Position numbers and translations under genes: made by a program
The notes under the pieces: model-generated
What the model saw: only the letters and a program-made list of their open reading frames with translations
The model's database searches: none
What the model was told of the DNA's origin: nothing
Shown here: positions 8,377 through 48,941 of the stretch, piece after piece
How positions within the stretch are numbered: position 1 is the stretch's first letter
Layout of the letters: each line of letters begins with the position of its first letter
Source of the DNA: Longimicrobiales bacterium
GTDB taxonomy: Bacteria; Gemmatimonadota; Gemmatimonadetes; Longimicrobiales; Gaopeijiaceae
Assembly: GCA_028278645.1 (NCBI GenBank)
Contig: JANQDZ010000095.1
Span: forward strand, 1-64,000
Reading direction: 5' to 3'
DNA: 64,000 nucleotides

Positions 8377-9234
8377 TCAGCGAGCGTGGTCGAAGAACCC
8401 CTGGCCGGACTTCCGCCCCAACCACCCGGCCGCCACATACTTCCTGAGGAGGGGACAGGGACGATAACGGTCGTCGCCGATGTCCCGATGGAGCACTTCG
8501 AGAATGCTCAGACACACGTCCAAACCGATCAGGTCGGCCAGGGCCAGGGGACCCATGGGATGGGCCATTCCGAGCTTCATCACCGTATCGATGGCCTCCG
8601 CTTCCGCCACGCCTTCCATGAGGGCGAAGATCGCCTCGTTGATCATCGGCATGAGGACCCGATTTGACACGAAGCCCGGAAAGTCATTGACCTCAACCGG
8701 GGTCTTCCCCAGCTCCACCGAGAGGTCCATCACCGTTTGGGTGGTGGCATCGTCCGTAGCCAAACCCCTGATCACTTCCACCAGCTTCATCATGGGCACC
8801 GGGTTCATGAAGTGCATGCCGATGACCTTCTTCGGCCGGTTGGTGAACGCGGCGATCTCAGTGATGGAGATTGAGGAGGTGTTCGTGGCCAGAATGGCGT
8901 CCTCCGGGGCCTTTTCATCCAGCTCGGAGAAGATGCTCTCCTTCAGTTCCAGCTTTTCCGGCACCGCCTCGACGATCAGCTGGGCCTCACTGACGGCTTC
9001 CTCGATGGACGTGGCGGTGGAGATCCGTCCCAGCGCCTCTTCTTTCTCCCCTGCGCTGATGATCTCCTTCTTTACCTGTCGATCCATGTTCTTGAAGATC
9101 GTGCCTAGGGCCCGCTCCAGCAGGTCCTGGTTCATGTCCACCAGGGTGACGGTCCGGCCGGCTTGAGCGCACACATGAGCGATGCCGTTTCCCATGGTTC
9201 CGCCGCCGAGTACAGTGATTCGCTCTACGGTCAT
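8377..9234 (-). CDS. hbd: 3-hydroxybutyryl-CoA dehydrogenase (3-hydroxyacyl-CoA dehydrogenase)
   Basis: Oxidises or reduces between 3-hydroxyacyl-CoA and 3-oxoacyl-CoA with NAD(H). The 285-residue single-function form has the NAD-binding GGGTMG motif at residues 10-15, the TNTSSISI segment, the catalytic histidine in GMHFMNPVPMMKLVE and the C-terminal dimerisation domain ending in a GRKSGQGFFDH motif. The ATG at 9234 has GGGAG seven bases upstream. It leads a run hbd, acyl-CoA dehydrogenase, leucine dehydrogenase on the minus strand. No enoyl-CoA hydratase is encoded in this window, so the pathway is incomplete here. Confidence 0.94.
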   Translation of the reverse strand: MTVERITVLGGGTMGNGIAHVCAQAGRTVTLVDMNQDLLERALGTIFKNMDRQVKKEIISAGEKEEALGRISTATSIEEAVSEAQLIVEAVPEKLELKESIFSELDEKAPEDAILATNTSSISITEIAAFTNRPKKVIGMHFMNPVPMMKLVEVIRGLATDDATTQTVMDLSVELGKTPVEVNDFPGFVSNRVLMPMINEAIFALMEGVAEAEAIDTVMKLGMAHPMGPLALADLIGLDVCLSILEVLHRDIGDDRYRPCPLLRKYVAAGWLGRKSGQGFFDHAR

Positions 9235-38465: not shown

Positions 38466-39380
38466 CTACCCAGAAGCCACCCCCAACACGACTCTTTCAC
38501 GCCCTGCCAGATCGGTGTGCACGGCAACCTCACAAAACCCCCCATCCCGCTCCATGGCCTCGGCCACCTCTCTGGCCTGCCCATCGCCTACCTCGGTGGC
38601 CAACAGGCCCCCCGGGAGGAGGTGGCCCCGGGCTCCTTGAACCAGGGGAGAAAGAACGGCCAAGCCGTCCGCCCCCGCGAAAAGCGCCCCCGGCGGTTCC
38701 CATTCACGGATCTCCGGCTGGAGGGAAGACCGGTCGCCCTCCGGTATGTATGGGGGGTTGGACACGATCACGTGGAAACGCTCTCCGGACCCCAGAGGCT
38801 CCAAGCCGAATCCTATCCTGAAGTCCACTCGCTCCTCCAGCCCATGGTCCAGGGCGTTCTCTGCCGCCAACTCCAGGGCCTCATGGGACGGGTCGGTGCC
38901 TACGGCATTTTGGAAGGGCCCTTCCTTGAGAAGAGAAAGGACGATGGCCCCGGTGCCGGTCCCGATATCCGCTGCTGAAAGAGGGCCTTCTTTTCCCCGG
39001 GCCCACCGCAGAACCTCCCCCACCAGGACTTCCGTTTCCGGCCGGGGTATCAGAGCTCTGGTATCCGTTCGCAGATCCAGTTCCCTGAAGGGAGTTTTCC
39101 CAAGGATGTATTGGAGAGGCTCCCGGGACGCTCTTCGTCGTAGGAGGGTCTTGAAAGAATCCAACTCCATGGGTTGGAGGGGCCGATCGAACTGCAGGTA
39201 AAGATCCAGGCGGGCAACGTCCAAAACGCTGGCCAAGAGAAGCTCAGCCTCCAACCGCCCGTTTTCCACACCTTTTTCCAGCAGGTACTCTCCGCTCCAT
39301 CGGGTCAGACGGATGGGAGTCCATGCCTCACCCGGCGCCGGGAGATGAGCATCGGTACGTCCCCCTTTGTCACGGGTCAC
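38466..39380 (-). CDS. prmC: Peptide chain release factor N5-glutamine methyltransferase
   Basis: PrmC methylates the glutamine of the GGQ motif of release factors. The 304-residue protein has an N-terminal helical domain with YILGKTPF, the SAM motif [14 protein letters not shown] and the catalytic NPPY at residues 208-211, followed by a C-terminal family block. The GTG start overlaps the prfA stop by four bases (GTGA), so it is translated together with its substrate RF1, the usual arrangement. Confidence 0.95.
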
Positions 39381-40474
39381 GCCTCGGCCGCCTCCATCCG
39401 TTCCTCCTCCTGAGCGAGGCGGAGGGCCGATATGAGCTCGTCCAGATCTCCGTCCAGGATCTCTTCTAGACGATGAAGGGTGAGGCCGATTCGATGATCG
39501 GTCACCCGGTTTTGGGGGAAGTTATAGGTACGGATCTTGGCCGACCGATCACCTGTTCCGACCTGCATTCGCCGCTCCCGAGCCCGATCCGCTTCCTGCT
39601 CGGCAATCTTCAGGTCCAGGAGACGGCTCCTAAGGACCTTCAAAGCCTTTGCTTTGTTCTTGTGCTGTGACTTCTCGTCTTGGCAGCTCACCACAAGGCC
39701 GGACGGAGTATGGGTAATCCGGACGGCCGAATCGGTGGTATTCACGGACTGGCCGCCAGGGCCGGAGGAGCGGAAAACGTCGATTCGGAGGTCCGCGGGA
39801 TCGATCTCGAGGTCCACCTCCTCCGCTTCAGGAAGAACCGCCACGGTTGCCGCAGAGGTATGGATTCGACCCGAACTTTCTGTCTGAGGTACCCGTTGGA
39901 CCCGGTGCACCCCCGATTCGAACCGCATTTGCCCGTAGACCCTTCGGCCCTGGACCGAGAAGATCACCTCTTTTACCGATCCGGGGATCCCTTCAGAGAG
40001 TGCGATCAGCTCGATGGTCCACCCCTTCCGCTCAGCCAGACGCCGGTACATGCGAAGGATGTCGCCCGCGAAAAGGCCCGCCTCGTCCCCGCCGGTCCCA
40101 GCTCGGACTTCCACCACGGCGGGCCGGTCTTCCAGGGGATCATCCGGGACGAGGAGCTCTTTTGCTTTCTGGGTGGCCGCGGACAGCTGCTCCTCCAAAC
40201 CCGCCAGCTCCTCCTCTGCCAGGTCCCGCATTTCCGGGTCGTCGGACTCTTCTGCGAGGCTCTGGGCCGAAAGGTACTCCTCCGAGAGCCGGCGTATCTC
40301 CTGAGCGGTCCTGGCGATCGGTTCGAGCTCGGATCGTTCGATTCCCAACGTGCGGAGTTTGTCCGGGTCCCCGGCGACCGCTGGATCGGAAAGCTCCGCA
40401 TCCACCTCGGACAGACGGTCCTCGGCTTCGGTCAGTCGCTGGACCAGCCGGGGATCGACAATGGGGTTCTTCAT
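39377..40474 (-). CDS. prfA: Peptide chain release factor 1
   Basis: RF1 terminates translation at UAA and UAG. The 365-residue protein has the recognition tripeptide region PQT at residues 196-198 ([10 protein letters not shown]) and the catalytic GGQ at residues 240-242 (SGPGGQSVN), with the [14 protein letters not shown] segment between. The start is the ATG at 40474, which gives the usual N-terminus; the frame continues upstream for 12 unconserved codons. PrmC, encoded next, methylates its glutamine. rpmE lies 101 bases upstream. Confidence 0.96.
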
Positions 40475-40575
40475 GGGTAGCGGGGCTTCACCGGATCCGG
40501 TCGAAGCCACATGTCAGGCAGGGAGGCCGACGGGGGAGAAAGCGGCTACCGGCCGGGAGGGCCCGGCCAGCAGGC

Positions 40576-40782
40576 TCACTTGGACGCCTTCTCGTACTTC
40601 TTCTTGAAGCGGTCAACCCGGCCGGCCGTATCGACCAGCTTCTGTTTGCCGGTATAAAAAGGGTGGCAAACGGAACAGATCTCCACGTGGATCTCGTCCT
40701 GGGTGGACATCGTGTCGACGCGGTTCCCGCAGGCGCAGATAATGGTTGCCGGCTTATAGTCCGGGTGGATTCCGTCCTTCAT
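40576..40782 (-). CDS. rpmE: 50S ribosomal protein L31 (zinc-binding form)
   Basis: L31 bridges the two ribosomal subunits. The 68-residue protein has the C+ set of cysteines (C16, C18, C36 and C39), expected to hold zinc, and the HPDYKP and HPFYTGKQK family blocks. The ATG at 40782 has GGAG seven bases upstream. A promoter (40841-40869) and a hairpin (40809-40830) lie directly ahead, so rpmE starts a transcription unit that probably continues into prfA and prmC. A zinc-independent paralog, if any, is not in this window. Confidence 0.97.
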
Positions 40783-40808
40783 TTCATTACTCCGGGTCCT
40801 CAAGTAGG

Positions 40809-40830
40809 AACGGGCCCACTGGGGCCCGTT
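40809..40830 (-). promoter_or_regulatory. 5'-terminal hairpin of the rpmE leader
   Basis: A perfect 9-bp stem (AACGGGCCC, 40809-40817, with GGGCCCGTT at 40822-40830) has a 4-base loop. It begins about eleven bases downstream of the predicted -10 box, so it would sit at the very 5' end of the rpmE transcript. L31-binding leader RNAs are described in several bacterial groups, but I cannot match this one to them. It could equally end the lnt transcript or stabilise the mRNA end. Confidence 0.55.
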
Positions 40831-40840
40831 TAACCTGGAA

Positions 40841-40869
40841 AATATAGAAAAGGGGGAAATCCAGTTCAA
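40841..40869 (-). promoter_or_regulatory. Predicted sigma-70-type promoter of rpmE
   Basis: The minus strand reads TTGAAC (40864-40869), 17 bases, then TATATT (40841-40846). This gives four of six and five of six matches to the -35 and -10 consensus with ideal spacing. It lies in the gap after the lnt stop and before rpmE. Confidence 0.65.
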
Positions 40870-40884: not shown

Positions 40885-42438
40885 TCAGAACCTCCCCGTG
40901 CCGACCCTCCTCCTGTACCCCATTCCAACAAGGAAAAGAACCGAAGCGGACAGGAGGGCACATACCGGGCCTACCCAATCCCCGGTCCGTATAAAGAGGG
41001 TCTTTCCCTCGTAGACGGTGAGCTCGTTTCGGACCACGTCGCCCTCCCCGGATACCGTCTCCGACGCTTTGTGGCCCCGGGGATCCAAGAGGAAGGAAAA
41101 TCCTCCGTTCGCCGCTCGGACGACGGGCGATCGTGTCTCGATGGCCCGGAGAACGAGGTGAGCCGGGTGCTGAGTCAGGAAGAGGGAGCCCACCAGGGAC
41201 CCTTCGTGCCCAAACCAGATGTCGCTGGAGAGGTTTATCAGAACCTCGGCGCCCGTGGTCTTCGCCCGCCGAGCCGATCCTCCGAACAGGGACTCGTAGC
41301 AAACGAGAGGACCATAAGTCCAATCTCCGGCCACAAATACAGACTGACGCCCGCCCCTCCGGTATGATCCGGATTCCATACCCGGGACGAGGCGGGCTTT
41401 GTCGTACACTTGGATCGCCGCCCGGCTTTCATCACTGGGCGGGTACGAAAGAAGGAAGGCTGAGTTGGTTAAGCCTGCGCCTACCTGCCCCGGTCCGTCC
41501 CCACCCAGACCCCCAAAAACCACAGGAGCCTCCACCGCACCAGAAAAAAAAATGAGGTCCTCCAGAAGGCCAGCGGCTTGCTCGGCCTGAATGGAAACCG
41601 GAATGGTCCCTTCGGGAATAACAACGAGGTCCGCCGCCCCTGGAACCAGAGACCCAACAGATCCCAGGACCTGGCTGATGGCTTCGGCTCCGGCCAGGTC
41701 CGGCCGCACCCGAAGCTCGGCGGGAACTCGGGTCCCCACCACCGCCACGGTGGGGCCAGGGGAAAGGGGAAGGGTACGGGCTCTGGACAGGCCCAGGACG
41801 GCCGGGATGAACAGAGCCAGGGCCGCCCCTGCCCAAGCCCGTCGGCCTTTACCGACACGCGTCTTCATGACCGCCATGGCGATCATCCCGTTCACCCCTG
41901 CCAGCCAGAAGGAAACCCCGGACTCCCCGATCCATTCCGCCACTCCCAGGAGGTCAGGTTGGCTGGAAAACCCCAGGCTCAGGCCCATCCACGGAAATGC
42001 CAAACCAAAGGGAAAATGGGCCTTTGCCCATTCCACTCCCACCCACGCCAGCGGAAGGGCAAGCCCCAGGGTCAGGCCGAAGGCTCCGTGGAACGCGTGA
42101 ATCAGCCGCCCGCAGAGGGCTGAGAGGAGCACGAGGATGGACAAGAGGAGGAGATAACCCGGGTAAGCCCAGGAAAAGTGGGGAGCCACCACCGCGGGTA
42201 TCCAAACCAAGGTCCATCCCCAATAAGCGCTGCCGAACGCCCCACCCAGAACCGTGGCCGTCCAGGCTCCGCTCGGGTTGTCGGGTAAAGAACCAACTGC
42301 GATAGCAAGGGGAACAAGGGCGACGACCGCCAGCGGGAACAAGTCGAAGGGCGGCTGGGCGAGTACGAGCAAAACCGCAGCCGACAAAACTCCGCCTAGC
42401 CGTGAGAAACCGAGGCTGGACCAGGCCTCGGAAGGCAT
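40885..42438 (-). CDS. lnt: Apolipoprotein N-acyltransferase
   Basis: Lnt adds the third acyl chain to the N-terminal cysteine of lipoproteins at the periplasmic face of the inner membrane. The 517-residue protein has about six or seven membrane helices in residues 15-210. A nitrilase-like domain follows with the catalytic triad E276 (VIPEGTIP), K347 (YDKARLVPG) and C380 (LVCYESL). E355 aligns with the second essential glutamate (LVPxxE). A C-terminal helix (about residues 488-507) completes it. The triad is intact, so activity is expected. Its ATG overlaps the stop of the DUF4105 gene by one base, linking it to a second candidate lipoprotein N-acyltransferase. Confidence 0.94.
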   Translation of the reverse strand: MPSEAWSSLGFSRLGGVLSAAVLLVLAQPPFDLFPLAVVALVPLAIAVGSLPDNPSGAWTATVLGGAFGSAYWGWTLVWIPAVVAPHFSWAYPGYLLLLSILVLLSALCGRLIHAFHGAFGLTLGLALPLAWVGVEWAKAHFPFGLAFPWMGLSLGFSSQPDLLGVAEWIGESGVSFWLAGVNGMIAMAVMKTRVGKGRRAWAGAALALFIPAVLGLSRARTLPLSPGPTVAVVGTRVPAELRVRPDLAGAEAISQVLGSVGSLVPGAADLVVIPEGTIPVSIQAEQAAGLLEDLIFFSGAVEAPVVFGGLGGDGPGQVGAGLTNSAFLLSYPPSDESRAAIQVYDKARLVPGMESGSYRRGGRQSVFVAGDWTYGPLVCYESLFGGSARRAKTTGAEVLINLSSDIWFGHEGSLVGSLFLTQHPAHLVLRAIETRSPVVRAANGGFSFLLDPRGHKASETVSGEGDVVRNELTVYEGKTLFIRTGDWVGPVCALLSASVLFLVGMGYRRRVGTGRF

Positions 42439-43682
42439 CAGTCGGACTTCAACCGAGCGACCGCAATCCAGAGACAGAGGTTCACAGGGAGGGTCAGGGC
42501 CAAAACCTCCAGGTGTTTCTGTCCGACACCCGGGATAACTTCCAGGAGGACTCCCAGGACGGAGAAGCCCGCCAGGACCGCAGCGGTGGCTCGTCCCCAG
42601 TCAGAGAACCGACCACTGAAGAAGAAGACCACAAAAGCCACCAAAAGCGGAAGGAAAAGCGGGTTCACCTGAAAAAGGTTGAAGTTGGCGTACCAGAACT
42701 GGTGATCAGTGAAGAGCCACGCCCCCAGGAGGAGTGTCCCGCCCAAAGCAGCAAGAGCCGCCCAACCCCCGCCTAACGCAAGAACGCCCGCCCGCCTCAA
42801 GATCCCCATCTGGATTCCGGGTTTGGCGATCCACAGGAGGGACCCACCCCAAAAGAGTCCGACCAGCAGGAAAATGGGAAGCGCGAAAGGAGCCGAGGAC
42901 GGAGGCGCGGACCGAGTGGACTTCAGGAGCTGCCCTTCCCGCAGCACCAAGGGCCTTGTGCCACCGGACCCATCTGGGACCTGCACCTCCCGGATGCTCT
43001 CTTGTAGAATACGGGGCAAGAACATCTCTTCCCAAACGGTAATCGGGCGATCGGCACTGGGGCCCAACACGAACTGGATACCCAGGTAGTACAGGGGCAT
43101 CTCCTTCAGAATTCGACGTGTGTGCCAACGGAAAGAGTGGTCGGTGGTATCGCTGGCGAACCCGGCCTCGATCCTCCCTCCGATGACCCGGTCCAGGGCG
43201 TCACGGAGACGTGTGGAGCAGTTGTCCCGATAGTAGTCGTATCGGTAATCCCGATTCTCCGGCCGGTAGTTCTCCTCCACCAGAGCCAGCAACTCATTCC
43301 TCTGCGGGGGCGTGAGGGCCAACTCCTGGATCCACACCGGGCGGCCAGCCCGCCCATACGCCGAAAGGGCTTCGGAGAAGTCCGACGGCCCCATGGAGTA
43401 GAGCATGGTGCCCCGGATCAGCCGAGGCACGAAGTCCTCTGAGAAGAAGTTGAAGATTCCCCAATGATAGACTACGGCCGCCCCGTTTTCCCGATTCTCG
43501 AAGAGCAGGGCGTTGTGGCCGAACCGTTCCCAAACCGGGTCTCCCTGCCCAATGGTGATCAGAGAGACCGAGAGCTCGGACCCAGGGTCGGGAGTGGGGC
43601 CAAGCGGCGCTTCCTGGGCCCCCAGCGGGAGGGTCCCCAGGAAGATCGCCACCCAAAGCAGACGACCGCCGGTTCCGATCAA
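42438..43682 (-). CDS. DUF4105 / Lnb-like protein (candidate second lipoprotein N-acyltransferase)
   Basis: A 414-residue membrane protein: signal or anchor at residues 8-22, a periplasmic domain (about residues 25-255), then five predicted membrane helices (about 266-286, 299-323, 342-356, 366-383, 391-411). The periplasmic part has FGHNALLF with H56 and DNCSTRLRDALDR with C155, a thiol-type His/Cys pair. The DUF4105-plus-five-helix layout and the NFNLFQVNPLFL segment match the Lnb family; a Bacteroides Lnb is reported to N-acylate lipoproteins in place of Lnt. I recall this from the literature and cannot check it. Here the gene overlaps lnt by one base and the outer-membrane protein gene by four. 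Whether it acylates lipoproteins in this organism is inference. Confidence 0.8.
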   Translation of the reverse strand: MIGTGGRLLWVAIFLGTLPLGAQEAPLGPTPDPGSELSVSLITIGQGDPVWERFGHNALLFENRENGAAVVYHWGIFNFFSEDFVPRLIRGTMLYSMGPSDFSEALSAYGRAGRPVWIQELALTPPQRNELLALVEENYRPENRDYRYDYYRDNCSTRLRDALDRVIGGRIEAGFASDTTDHSFRWHTRRILKEMPLYYLGIQFVLGPSADRPITVWEEMFLPRILQESIREVQVPDGSGGTRPLVLREGQLLKSTRSAPPSSAPFALPIFLLVGLFWGGSLLWIAKPGIQMGILRRAGVLALGGGWAALAALGGTLLLGAWLFTDHQFWYANFNLFQVNPLFLPLLVAFVVFFFSGRFSDWGRATAAVLAGFSVLGVLLEVIPGVGQKHLEVLALTLPVNLCLWIAVARLKSD

Positions 43683-44359
43683 CGGGTCCTTTCCTCACCA
43701 GCGGCGGGTCCGGTCAGCATGATCTGAAGCCCGAACCGAGCTTCGAAATACCGGAGGTCCTCCATGAGCTCATACCGGCCCTCACCATAGACCCGGAAGG
43801 CGTCGGACAGAGGATACTCCAGCCCCCCATGGAGGTTAAAACCGGGCTTTACGGAGTCCAGGAGGTCTTCCACAAAGGTCCGTTTGATGAACTCACCATC
43901 ACCATCCATGATGTGGAGACTCATCCCACCGCCGGCAAACGTCAGGAGATCCAACGGGATCGACCAGACGAAATGGGCGTCCATGGACAGGATGAGGTCG
44001 GAGTAGTTTATGGTTCCCAAGTCTACCCCGGTGAAGTCGGGAATGGGTTCCTGCGGATCATCCACCAGGTCGTTGATATTCCGCTCCAACCGCTGGACCT
44101 CTCTTTCCTTCATGTCGGAGGACCAGTATGCAACGCCGGGAATCAACCGGAGCCCAGGTCCGAGGTAGCCAAGGTCCACCCTCAAACCGAGGGTGTTGGT
44201 GGCTACCGCTTTGGTGGGCCAGATGTACCCGGTCTCGAGGGCAAACCCGCGGAAGGAGAGGTTCTCATAGTCGTAGTCGGCTAGGCTCGACTGTCCGTTG
44301 GCCTCACCTGCAAAAAAGACCAGGCCTAGGAAGACAGCCAGGGCTGAGGTTCGTCTCAT
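43679..44359 (-). CDS. Predicted outer-membrane beta-barrel protein
   Basis: A 226-residue exported protein. The N-terminus is a signal peptide (MRRTSALAVFLGLVFFAG, cleavage probably after AEANG near residue 22). The mature part alternates polar and aromatic-hydrophobic strands (FRGFALETGYIWPT, GLRVDLGYLGPGLRL, FNLHGGLEYPL, RYELMEDLRYFEARFGLQI), as expected of a small OmpW- or OmpA-like barrel of about eight strands. I do not recognise a named family. It lies between rimO and the DUF4105 gene with four-base overlaps on both sides, so it is co-translated with the lipoprotein-maturation genes. Confidence 0.75.
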   Translation of the reverse strand: MRRTSALAVFLGLVFFAGEANGQSSLADYDYENLSFRGFALETGYIWPTKAVATNTLGLRVDLGYLGPGLRLIPGVAYWSSDMKEREVQRLERNINDLVDDPQEPIPDFTGVDLGTINYSDLILSMDAHFVWSIPLDLLTFAGGGMSLHIMDGDGEFIKRTFVEDLLDSVKPGFNLHGGLEYPLSDAFRVYGEGRYELMEDLRYFEARFGLQIMLTGPAAGEERTR

Positions 44360-45813
44360 GCTTTTCTCCTCACGGCACCAATCAAATCATAATCCAAGGC
44401 ATCCAAGACCTCGATCTCCACAAAATCCCCCGGAAGGACATTCTCGGCTGGATGGAGGTTCGTGACCCCGTCCACATCGAGAGCTTGGGTTTCTATCCGG
44501 GCCTGAAATGCAAACTCCGGATCATCATCTAGTACCCGGTCGACAAGGGCGATGGTCCGCCTCCCTACCTGATCGAGGTTCAGCTCGAAGGAGATCTCTC
44601 GCTGCAGATCCAGGAGGGTTTCAAGCCGTTCCGATTTCTCTTCCTCAGGGATCTGGTCAGGCATCTCCGCTGCAGCGGTTCCCTCCTCGTGGGAGTAGGA
44701 AAAAGCTCCCACCCGGTCGAACCGAATCTCCTCCAGGAGGTCCAGGAGCTCCCGGAAGTCGTCGTCTGTCTCGCCGGGAAACCCGACGATGACCGTGGTC
44801 CTGAGGGTCAGATCCGGGATCGCATCCCGGAGCCACCTCACCTTTTCCAGAATTGTGGCCCGCCTCTCGGGCCGTCGCATGGCTTTCAGAATCCGGTCGC
44901 TCCCGTGTTGGAGCGGCATATCCAAGTAGGAGAGGAGTCTGGAGTCGGAGGCAAGCAGCTCCACCAGCTCTCTCGTGATTCCTGAAGGATACATGTAGAA
45001 AAGCCGGAACCACGGCACGTCGGTCTTGTCGAGCAGCGCTCTCAGAAGCCCCGGAAGCAGGTCGGCGTTCGGATCGATGCGCTTCCTGTCCCGTCCGTAC
45101 CACGTGGTGTCCTGAGAGATGATGTTCAACTCTTTTACGCCCTGGTCCCGCAGTGCCTGAGCCTCCCGGACCAGGTCGGATGCGGGGGAGGACCGGTGAA
45201 AGCCCCGCATGAGGGGGATCGCGCAGAAGGCACAGGAGTGGTCACACCCCTCGCTGATCTTCAGGAAGGAGGTGTGTGGGGTTTCGCTGGCCAGCACCCG
45301 GAGGGGTCGTTCCATGGTAGGAACCAGGTCGTCGGCCTCCGGAAGCAACCCCCGGTTCCTCAGAGAGGGGATCAGGTCAGCCAGCTCGGTGAGACCCAAA
45401 AAGAGATCGACCTCGGGAATCTCCGCGGCCAGTTCCTTCTTGTATCGCTGTACCATACAACCCACGGCCACCACCGCCTTCACATCCCCCGTGTCCTTCA
45501 GGTCGCAGGCTTCGAGGATCGTCTCGATGGATTGTTCCTTCGCCGCCTCGATGAACCCACAGGTATTGACGATCACGACCTCTGAGGTACTCACGTCACT
45601 GGTGACCCGAGCCCCCTGCCCCACCAGGGCAGCCATCATGTGCTCCGAATCGACGGTGTTCTTGTCGCAGCCGAGGGTGACCAGCCCGATCCTTGGTCCG
45701 GCTTCGGGACCCACCGGGTCCAGTTGATGCTGGACGGATGAGGTGGCGGGGTTCACCTCCGGCCGGATGGGTTCGGCGGAAAGGGGGATAACCGGTAAAT
45801 CCCTACGTTTCAC
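44356..45813 (-). CDS. rimO: Ribosomal protein S12 methylthiotransferase RimO
   Basis: RimO methylthiolates an aspartate of ribosomal protein S12 with two iron-sulfur clusters. The 485-residue protein has the UPF0004 domain cysteines C49, C85 and C119, the radical SAM C190, C194 and C197 (EGCDHSCAFC), the GFPGETDDDF segment and a C-terminal TRAM domain. The first 40 residues are an unconserved N-terminal extension from a GTG at 45813; a later internal start is possible. The ribosome site is weak. It overlaps the outer-membrane protein gene downstream. lolA lies 66 bases upstream, with a GC-rich hairpin between them. Confidence 0.93.
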   Translation of the reverse strand: MKRRDLPVIPLSAEPIRPEVNPATSSVQHQLDPVGPEAGPRIGLVTLGCDKNTVDSEHMMAALVGQGARVTSDVSTSEVVIVNTCGFIEAAKEQSIETILEACDLKDTGDVKAVVAVGCMVQRYKKELAAEIPEVDLFLGLTELADLIPSLRNRGLLPEADDLVPTMERPLRVLASETPHTSFLKISEGCDHSCAFCAIPLMRGFHRSSPASDLVREAQALRDQGVKELNIISQDTTWYGRDRKRIDPNADLLPGLLRALLDKTDVPWFRLFYMYPSGITRELVELLASDSRLLSYLDMPLQHGSDRILKAMRRPERRATILEKVRWLRDAIPDLTLRTTVIVGFPGETDDDFRELLDLLEEIRFDRVGAFSYSHEEGTAAAEMPDQIPEEEKSERLETLLDLQREISFELNLDQVGRRTIALVDRVLDDDPEFAFQARIETQALDVDGVTNLHPAENVLPGDFVEIEVLDALDYDLIGAVRRKA

Positions 45814-45840: not shown

Positions 45841-45880
45841 ACCGCCCGGCGGCCGCCGTGGGACGGCGGGTGGGGGCGGT
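45841..45880 (-). other. GC-rich hairpin after lolA
   Basis: The outer 7-bp arms ACCGCCC (45841-45847) and GGGCGGT (45874-45880) enclose a nested 6-bp stem CCGCCG/CGGCGG around a 5-base loop. The hairpin starts at the lolA stop codon. No U run follows on the minus strand, so it is a weak or Rho-dependent terminator candidate at most. Confidence 0.35.
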
Positions 45881-46563
45881 TAATCTCGGCGAATGACCTG
45901 TGCTCCCTCCGGGGGCACAAATCGGTAACGGGCCGGATCCGGCGGGGGGTTCAGAACAATCTCCGAAAGGGACACCGTCCGGACGGACCCATTCTCCATC
46001 TCGATCCGGGCTTGAACGATGAGAGACCGTTCCGGATCGAGCCAGATCCTGGCCCCCTCGAACCCCGCGGGCCCGGTGGGGACCAGGGAGACCACGTGGC
46101 TGGACACCCCATTGACCGGCTCTGTCCCTAGGTACTCCATCGTGTATTTGCTTTCCGGAGACTCCAAGAACTCACGATGGAAATCCAAACCCCCGGGGCG
46201 AGCTTCCATCTCGAACCGGAGGACTTGCCGGGGATCGGTGCTGGGGTAGTAAACCCAGAAGGCCTCACCGTCGGCCACCAACAGGTCCCCCTCGGGTTCG
46301 GAGAACCGCATGGCGAATAAATTCGGCGCCTCCTGACAGAGAGATCCCCTTGACCGGGTTGTATCACTCAGGAGCGGGACCTCGAGCACCTGCCGGAAAT
46401 CGGCGCAAAAGCCTCGGAGGTCGCTGTACCTTGCGCCCGCTTCCTCCATCAGGGAGAGGGCCTCGGTATCCTGGGCGCTCAAACCCTTAGAGGAGAGGGG
46501 GAGGACCACCCCGAGAAGGGCGAATCCACCAATGGCTCTGTACGATGCTCGGCCCGGCCTCAT
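45880..46563 (-). CDS. lolA: LolA-like outer-membrane lipoprotein carrier protein
   Basis: LolA carries lipoproteins across the periplasm from LolCDE to the outer membrane. The 227-residue protein has a signal peptide (about residues 8-30, cleavage after GLSA) and the LolA fold: RYSDLRGFCADFRQV, a GSLCQEAPNLFAMRFSEPEG segment, VADGEAFWVYYP and a C-terminal LSEIVLNPPPDPARYRF typical of the family. Two cysteines (near residues 53 and 76) could form a disulfide. The ATG overlaps the ftsK stop (ATGA). ftsK-lolA adjacency is common in bacteria. Confidence 0.88.
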   Translation of the reverse strand: MRPGRASYRAIGGFALLGVVLPLSSKGLSAQDTEALSLMEEAGARYSDLRGFCADFRQVLEVPLLSDTTRSRGSLCQEAPNLFAMRFSEPEGDLLVADGEAFWVYYPSTDPRQVLRFEMEARPGGLDFHREFLESPESKYTMEYLGTEPVNGVSSHVVSLVPTGPAGFEGARIWLDPERSLIVQARIEMENGSVRTVSLSEIVLNPPPDPARYRFVPPEGAQVIRRD

Positions 46564-48941
46564 AACTCCTCCTCTTCTCCCCGTCTCAGGAACTCGAGGT
46601 CGGAAAGGGTCATCAGCACCTCCCTTGCTTTTGACCCGTCCGGAGGCCCAAGGATCCCCGCGTCATGAAGTTGGTCTACCACCCGGGCAGCCCGTCCATA
46701 GCCGATTTTGAGACGTCTTTGCAGAAGTGAGGTCGATCCCTGGTTTTGCTGGATGCAGACCTCAGCCGCATCCCAAAAACGGTCATCCCGGTCATCGTCC
46801 GGCGACAAACCACCCTCTTCCATCCCAACCTCCGCCTCCATGCTCCGAACCACCTCCAGGATATCCTCCTCCTCGGGCCACCGTTCCTCTTTCGACACCG
46901 GGTCCGACCGAAGGGTAGCCTGCTCTCGGTACCAGGAGGTCAGGCGTTCAGTTTCCTCGGTCCCGATATAGGCTCCCTGTATTCGCACCGGCTCGGAGGT
47001 GCCCGGCGGGAGAAAGAGCATGTCTCCGTTACCCAGGAGTGCATCGGCACCGTTTTGATCGATGATGGTTCGGGAATCGACTTTGGACGCCACCCGGAAG
47101 GCCACGCGGGTGGGGAAATTTGCCTTGATGAGCCCTGTGATGACGTTCACGCTCGGCCGCTGGGTGGCGACGAGGAGGTGGATCCCGATGGCGCGGGCCT
47201 TCTGGGCTAGCAGCGTCAGGGGTTTTTCAACCTCGCTTTGTACGGTCATCATCAGGTCCGCCAGCTCGTCCACGACCAGGACCACGTACGGCACGGGCCC
47301 ATCCTTCCAGAGCCACCGGTCCGGGTCCCCGTCGGGGCCTTTGGGATGGACCCTCTTCAGGGGCACCCCCTGGCGGAGTTTCTTGTTGAACTCGCCGATG
47401 GATCTGACGGTGTTGGCGTGGAGAAGCTCATACCTCCGCTCCATCTCGAACACCGCCCACTTGAGCACACCGGCAGCCTCCCGAGGATCGGTGACCACGG
47501 GGTGCCTGAGGTGAGGCAGGTCCACGTAGGCACTCAGCTCCACCATCTTCGGGTCGATGAGTAGAAATCGGAGGGTTTCCGGAGTGTGACGGTATACGAG
47601 ACTGGTGATGAAGGCGTTCAAACAGACCGATTTTCCCGATCCCGTCGCACCAGCGATAAGGGCATGGGGCATCCGGGCCAAGTCGGCCACGAAGGGACGT
47701 CCCGTCAGATCTCTTCCCAGGGCCAAGGGGAGCTCCGCCTTGGTCCGACCGAACTGACGGGATTCCAGGATCTCCCTCAAGAAGACCATCTCGGCCTTGG
47801 GGTTGGGAATCTCAACCCCCACCGCCCCCTTCCCGGGGATGGGCGCGACGATCCTGATGCTCCTGGCCTTCATGGCCAGGGCCAGGTCGGCGTCGAGGTT
47901 GGCAATGCGATTGACCTTTACCCCTGGCGCCGGGACCACCTCGAACTGGGTGACCACCGGACCGGTGGTGCGCCCCCCTATGCTGCACTCCACGTTGAAC
48001 GTCTGAAGCTTCTGGACAAGGACCTCACCAAGGCGATCCAACTCTCGTTCCATCCCCTCCCGATCGGAAAGGTCCGGTTCATCCAGGTGGTCGAGGGATG
48101 GGAGCTCGTGAGGAATCTCGTCCTGCCGGGGATTCGGGTCCTCCAGGTCGGAGATCCCCTCCTCCTCCAACGGATCGGCCTCCTCCGCTTCGAGGAGGTC
48201 GGGGATCACCACTTCCTCGACCGGATCTTCCTCCTCCTCCAACTCGTCGATGAAAGAAAAGAGGTCCGATGCCTCTGGGGCCTGCATCTCCTGTTTTTGA
48301 GCGGAAAGCTTCGCCCGGCGATGTTCAGCCAACTCTTCGAGCCAGCCCTTCAACCCGGTTCCGGCCCGCTGCGCACCCTTTCCAAGCAGGCCGGCGCCCT
48401 GGACGGCGCCGCGTCCCACAGGCAGGAGGGGATTCCAGCCCAACGTCCCCACAAGGAGAAGGAGAGTCAGAGCTCCCAGGAGAAAGAGCGTCCCGAAGCC
48501 TCCCAGACCGGACAACAACACCCCTCCGAACCAGGAGCCCAGCGCCCCTGAGGCGGCCGAGCCAGGCGAAAGCACCTGGAGCCCCGGCGGCAGCAGGATC
48601 AGAAGGCCAGCGAAGAGAATGGCAAGGCGGAGGGCCCAATTCGGGGAGATCCACCATCCCAACCTGAGTCCACCAACGGTCAACAGGGCTGGCAGGAGTA
48701 CCGCCGAGAGCCCGAATGTGTAGGCGAGAACAGCCTGGATGGCTGCCCCCACACTTCCCATGAGGTTACCCGACGGGAACCAGGTCTCCCCGAGTTCTCC
48801 AAGGATCCAAGTCGGAAACAGCACCAGGAAGAGAAACACGGCCAACGCCAGGACCCCGAGAGCCAGGATCTCCTGCTGCTGGTCTTGGCTGAGGAAAGCC
48901 TTGTTTCCCTTCTTTTTCCTCTTGCGTTTGGAAGCGGTCAC
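46560..48941 (-). CDS. ftsK: DNA translocase FtsK/SpoIIIE
   Basis: FtsK pumps chromosome termini through the division septum and aids dimer resolution. The 793-residue protein has four or five N-terminal membrane helices (residues 27-170) and an acidic linker (about residues 225-310). The motor domain follows with Walker A AGATGSGKS, the LLIDPKMVELS block, the Walker B VLVVDELADLMM and QRPSVNVITG. A C-terminal winged-helix gamma domain ends it. All essential motifs are present. The GTG start at 48941 has GAAGGG at a long distance. It overlaps lolA by four bases and lies 39 bases after comB. Confidence 0.96.
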   Translation of the reverse strand: MTASKRKRKKKGNKAFLSQDQQQEILALGVLALAVFLFLVLFPTWILGELGETWFPSGNLMGSVGAAIQAVLAYTFGLSAVLLPALLTVGGLRLGWWISPNWALRLAILFAGLLILLPPGLQVLSPGSAASGALGSWFGGVLLSGLGGFGTLFLLGALTLLLLVGTLGWNPLLPVGRGAVQGAGLLGKGAQRAGTGLKGWLEELAEHRRAKLSAQKQEMQAPEASDLFSFIDELEEEEDPVEEVVIPDLLEAEEADPLEEEGISDLEDPNPRQDEIPHELPSLDHLDEPDLSDREGMERELDRLGEVLVQKLQTFNVECSIGGRTTGPVVTQFEVVPAPGVKVNRIANLDADLALAMKARSIRIVAPIPGKGAVGVEIPNPKAEMVFLREILESRQFGRTKAELPLALGRDLTGRPFVADLARMPHALIAGATGSGKSVCLNAFITSLVYRHTPETLRFLLIDPKMVELSAYVDLPHLRHPVVTDPREAAGVLKWAVFEMERRYELLHANTVRSIGEFNKKLRQGVPLKRVHPKGPDGDPDRWLWKDGPVPYVVLVVDELADLMMTVQSEVEKPLTLLAQKARAIGIHLLVATQRPSVNVITGLIKANFPTRVAFRVASKVDSRTIIDQNGADALLGNGDMLFLPPGTSEPVRIQGAYIGTEETERLTSWYREQATLRSDPVSKEERWPEEEDILEVVRSMEAEVGMEEGGLSPDDDRDDRFWDAAEVCIQQNQGSTSLLQRRLKIGYGRAARVVDQLHDAGILGPPDGSKAREVLMTLSDLEFLRRGEEEEL

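Follow-up and report, generated by a model that had tools for sequence, protein, structure and literature searches.

Why should a bacterium encode two unrelated families of lipoprotein N-acyltransferase as an overlapping gene pair? N-acylation of lipoproteins is essential in Escherichia coli and a target for drugs. That there is a second N-acyltransferase, unrelated to Lnt, has become known only recently: Lnb is reportedly, according to 2024 work by Armbruster et al. in PNAS, the lipoprotein N-acyltransferase of Bacteroides. The window considered here, a stretch of 64,000 nucleotides from a Longimicrobiales bacterium of the Gemmatimonadota, carries a gene of the Lnb type (DUF4105) directly upstream of an lnt gene. 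That DUF4105 was 'repeatedly displaced' by Lnt, in three genomic contexts, is already known from a 2026 paper, which also refers to the experiments that identified Lnb in Bacteroides; its accessible part does not describe the paired locus, the decay remnant or the phylum-wide counts presented below (PMC12994826; PLoS Biol 2026). A literature search, with most subscription papers outside its reach, likewise found no report of Lnb and Lnt in one locus or of an lnt decay remnant.

On the minus strand the genes run in the order ftsK, lolA, rimO, a barrel gene, lnb, lnt, rpmE, prfA and prmC (Table 1), lolA being the third gene before lnb, from which rimO and the barrel gene separate it. The lnb-lnt junction reads ...GACTGATGCC, where the TGA of the first gene and the ATG of the second have one base in common, and there is likewise an overlap between the barrel-gene stop and the TTG start of lnb. 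On re-reading the sequence, the coordinates, the gene order and the one-base lnb/lnt overlap reported in an earlier note on this DNA all proved correct. The TGATG overlap makes translational coupling of lnb and lnt likely. The barrel protein is without a Pfam match and is predicted to fold into a barrel of 8 strands in the outer membrane, of the OmpA/OmpX/OmpW kind; its family recurs beside the N-acyltransferase slot across Gemmatimonadota.

Table 1. Features of the lnb-lnt locus, in coordinates of the window
Feature	Coordinates	Strand	Basis and remarks
lnb, DUF4105/Lnb-type N-acyltransferase (putative), 414 aa	42438..43682	(-)	TTG start, signal peptide, periplasmic permuted-papain-like domain (H56, C155), five membrane helices at the C-terminus; profiles and model
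lnt, apolipoprotein N-acyltransferase (predicted), 517 aa	40885..42438	(-)	E276/K347/C380 triad; profiles, relatives, alignment with solved Lnt
TGATG junction, lnb stop/lnt start	42436..42440	(-)	one base in common, read from sequence
barrel gene, predicted 8-stranded outer-membrane beta-barrel	43679..44359	(-)	stop overlaps lnb start; recurs beside the slot
rimO	44356..45813	(-)	left flank of the N-acyltransferase slot
lolA, periplasmic lipoprotein carrier	45880..46563	(-)	same gene string, upstream
ftsK	46560..48941	(-)	most upstream gene of the conserved string
rpmE (ORF as listed)	40576..40869	(-)	right flank of the slot
prfA	39377..40510	(-)	right flank of the slot

The Lnt of the window passes the equivalog cut-off of TIGR00546 (176.7 bits against 132.9) and carries the LNT_N (PF20154) and CN_hydrolase (PF00795) domains. 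A profile of the protein can be aligned over the full length with the solved Lnt structures (PDB 5n6h, 5vrg, 6nwr), the E, K and C motifs falling at corresponding positions, in agreement with its earlier description as a canonical Lnt with E276, K347 and C380. The Glu and the Lys are retained in 79 of 79 covered relatives and the Cys in 78 of them, the sole exception being a contig-end fragment. While the protein thus resembles E. coli Lnt in score, alignment and triad, it differs from it in that its gene overlaps an upstream lnb and that its genome encodes another candidate N-acyltransferase as well.

The Lnb-type protein matches both PF13387 (Lnb_N; E 4.1e-21, 75.7 bits, cut-off 22.2) and PF25221 (5TMH_Lnb; E 6.5e-6, 26.7 bits, cut-off 25.2), so that the Lnb-type architecture claimed for it previously held when checked against the Pfam profiles; PF25221 is also matched by 13 of 15 relatives. 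Against the NCBI profile NF051878 ('lipoprotein N-acyltransferase Lnb') the protein scores 187 bits over residues 37-408. This falls short of the profile's cut-off of 550, which is passed by a Bacteroides control and by none of the 79 Gemmatimonadota genomes searched. Given this score, the protein is best described as an Lnb-family homologue rather than filed as the Bacteroides equivalog, its likeness to Bacteroides Lnb appearing to be one of family and not of close orthology. An AlphaFold2 model built from a 15-sequence alignment (mean pLDDT 89) places five long helices, spanning 268-410, after a mixed periplasmic domain in which a strand starts at H56 and a helix at C155. This His-before-Cys order is that of the permuted NlpC/P60 domains, and the top PDB match of the model in Foldseek is one of them, TseH (6v98; prob 1.00, E only 0.018); phmmer and profile searches of the PDB sequences with the window Lnb found no relative. 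In this structure prediction, which the earlier note had proposed as a check on a His56-Cys155 pair, the periplasmic part is compatible with a permuted papain-like domain of the His-Cys kind. Both residues are retained in 161 of 161 relatives which, together with the five modelled helices, upholds the His/Cys domain and C-terminal membrane helices originally read from the letters. In sum, the paired Pfam domains, the full-length NF051878 match, the His and Cys, the five helices and the predicted permuted papain-like fold are shared with Bacteroides Lnb, whereas the low score, the Gemmatimonadota host and the adjoining canonical Lnt set the window protein, known here from sequence and a model, apart.

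A second DUF4105 paralogue, shorter than Lnb but scoring very well against PF13387, is present in G032, G250, G272, G285 and other genomes (L005-L025), mostly as open frames of ~290-320 aa that are likely to be without the Lnb membrane domain. The DUF4105 match of G190 was rejected as an Lnb because it is a short paralogue, and was dropped from the counts.

With these identities in hand, one might ask whether only Lnt N-acylates lipoproteins, the DUF4105 protein having some other job, for instance the remodelling of lipoproteins or the transfer of acyl groups to another target. The superfamily is broad enough to allow this, the accessible part of PMC12994826 giving the permuted NlpC/P60 fold as common to the effectors TseH and Tox-Act1 and to LRAT and YiiX, and the NF051878 score lies far below the equivalog cut-off. 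Yet the protein has the full Lnb architecture, and ~141 Gemmatimonadota genomes have a DUF4105 protein with no detected Lnt, often in Lnt's own slot; moreover, in one genome (G122, below) the decay of lnt was tolerated beside the DUF4105 gene. We therefore hold a separate job for this protein to be very improbable.

Across the Gemmatimonadota the two enzymes are strongly complementary. Among 298 surveyed genomes, for which profile counts were refined with custom profiles, both enzymes are present in 62, Lnb without Lnt in 141, Lnt without Lnb in 92 and neither of them in 3, the last against 45.9 expected under independence (Fisher 1e-30, a P value that ignores kinship and is hence inflated). 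At the genus level at most one of 119 genera has neither enzyme against 17.4 expected, with kinship again ignored. Most of these genomes are metagenome-assembled, and each individual absence is accordingly uncertain. In the family of the window (f1), 50 of the 73 genomes have both enzymes; outside it the two are almost mutually exclusive, with 12 of 225 genomes counted as having both, some of the Lnb matches there being counted without a full-length check. Single-enzyme genomes of both kinds also occur within f1: G122, G070 and G161 have only Lnb, the latter two being complete or near-complete assemblies, and G098 and G085 have only Lnt. G132 is a further Lnt-only genome, with the reservation that gaps in metagenome assemblies leave single absences uncertain. 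The genes could be located in 46 of the dual f1 genomes, where they are adjacent in 11 and far apart in 35. Three records labelled as Gammaproteobacteria with Lnb (L218, L225, L226) were rejected, as their Lnt matches equal those of the f1 genomes G279, G086 and G224 in contig coordinates and scores; they are probably mislabelled metagenome assemblies and were left out of the count for other phyla. The genomes of the Nitrospirota records L152, L161 and L197 have an Lnb-type gene and an Lnt, none of them near the Lnb.

These patterns also bear on the notion that Lnb and Lnt form one obligate complex. In the LnsA/LnsB system of staphylococci and monoderms both proteins are needed, and one of the two, we presume, plausibly has a papain-like fold. 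The tight overlap and the fixed gene order in the window and its relatives would suit an arrangement of this kind, but many genomes have just one of the enzymes and in the 35 f1 genomes mentioned above the genes lie far apart, making it hardly credible. Thus, while N-acylation involves two proteins in both cases, Lnb and Lnt each stand alone in many genomes, unlike the LnsA/LnsB pair (mentioned in PMC13251419).

The complementarity extends to chromosomal position. Lnt and Lnb have a common address, rimO-(spoIID)-(barrel)-mocA-[X]-rpmE-prfA, where mocA encodes a Gfo/Idh/MocA oxidoreductase and the occupant X is Lnt, or Lnb, or Lnb then Lnt. Genera of families f4 and f5 differ in X, some having Lnb there and some Lnt. 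Within f1 the slot holds Lnt (Lnb then being missing or encoded at another locus), the Lnb-Lnt pair, or a lone Lnb. Mapped on a tree of the flanking genes, the occupant changed at least 9 times. Double-occupied slots are found in the window genome (G000) and in G034, G069, G075, G096, G110, G167, G188, G240, G264, G288 and G159, with named records including L147, L156, L173, L205 and L221. The recurrence check suggested by the earlier note for the lnt-DUF4105 adjacency thus recovers it in at least six f1 genera (g1, g3, g6, g12, g18, g23) and in one other family (f5, G159). In every case the order is Lnb-Lnt, and nearly all show a small gap or overlap, mostly between -41 and +48 bases. In its main groups the tree of Lnb agrees with that of the flanking genes. 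The Lnb and the Lnt of G159 each group with their f5 relatives, in keeping with a double slot of old standing followed by reciprocal losses; repeated re-entry into the slot is a possible alternative history.

The strongest hint that one enzyme can stand in for the other comes from G122, a congener of the dual genome G110. Here a 417-base gap between an intact lnb and rpmE (L058:3990-4407) holds pieces of lnt: a C-terminal one with a blastn match to G110 of 72% over 210 bases (E 7e-24) and a short N-terminal one, with stops present and the catalytic core gone. A search of this genome for another Lnt found none. From this debris beside an intact lnb, we read that lnt was lost while lnb stayed. 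Remnants of lnb or lnt were sought in 88 single-occupied slots, and G122 was the only convincing case; other weak matches were rejected, as they fell in over-extended, out-of-frame ORF ends common to mocA. For the loss of lnb, an empty-site comparison in the g2 genomes G098, G128 and G197 met a donor locus around which gene order is disrupted and a dispersed repeat obscures the comparison. A dispersed repeat of ~240 bases occurs in dozens of copies in genus g2 genomes (L059 around 8723-8964).

The scarcity of genomes with neither enzyme, the single-enzyme relatives of both kinds and the decayed lnt beside an intact lnb lead to the proposal that the two are redundant within a repeated swap, and suggest that Lnb and Lnt are interchangeable. 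We consider it likely that both do the same job, lipoprotein N-acylation, and that the window presents the double-occupied, co-transcribed state of a repeated non-orthologous displacement, which became long-lived in f1. Each enzyme would N-acylate the S-diacylglyceryl cysteine after the action of Lgt and LspA, for both of which the window genome has genes, and before Lol export. Lnt would do so with a nitrilase-like domain bearing the Glu-Lys-Cys triad, of a fold unrelated to that of Lnb, and Lnb with a permuted NlpC/P60 (papain-like) domain and its His-Cys pair; both are expected to proceed via a thioester acyl-enzyme at the periplasmic face. One slot in the Gemmatimonadota would thus house the N-acyltransferase, its occupant flipping repeatedly between Lnt and Lnb; in the window Lnb and then Lnt are probably translated from a single message. 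The double state would be a displacement step turned long-lived, from which either enzyme could then be lost. None of the four options raised in the earlier note (cooperation, substrate division, condition-dependent use or a different job) is the best fit, and the data above speak against both obligate cooperation and an unrelated job. Enzymes that trade one slot, with double and decaying intermediates, make interchangeability, i.e. the presumed functional equivalence in vivo, directly testable in the Gemmatimonadota. Finding lnt in a genome is therefore no guarantee that Lnt is the sole or the needed N-acyltransferase of the organism.

Plain redundancy alone does not predict that dual possession should be so common and old in f1, with both active sites kept at ~40% identity, and some division of labour may exist. 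The catalytic residues are retained even though dual genomes differ at more than half of the residues, a mark of purifying selection on both genes in these genomes. In its full form, division of labour would mean that both are N-acyltransferases for different lipoproteins, donor lipids or growth conditions, the pair being kept by selection as a two-enzyme module. The retention of both, linked or not, in over two-thirds of the f1 genomes, the double slots in several deep f1 clades and the two types of Lgt in the window genome and G188, a hint of two lipidation streams, speak for it. Against this stand the single-enzyme f1 relatives of both kinds, the decay of lnt next to lnb in G122 and the single Lgt of most dual genomes. 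In addition, Lnt tends to diverge faster relative to flanking genes in dual-genome pairs (median ratio 2.64) than in pairs having just Lnt (1.86). Partial redundancy would have such an effect, and the difference, the pairs being non-independent, is weakly suggestive of relaxed constraint on Lnt; the corresponding Lnb ratio is flat at ~1.9 (pairs likewise non-independent). On balance we consider division of labour possible but unlikely, and redundancy within the repeated swap remains our preferred reading.

A bolder version, which we rate as quite unlikely, would have f1 turn the transitional swap into a stable two-enzyme lipidation module, the N-acyltransferases serving different lipoproteins or membrane lipids in two parallel maturation streams within a diderm. 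The window genome has one Lnb, one Lnt, one LspA and two Lgt. The latter, encoded at C41:93508-94248 (L275) and C102:74415-75176 (L276), are full-length, of different types and 25% identical to each other. Most f1 genomes have one Lgt type or the other, with both also in G188 and probably in G117. In the window genome, a kinase-like gene lies beside one of the two Lgt genes and tsaD beside the other.
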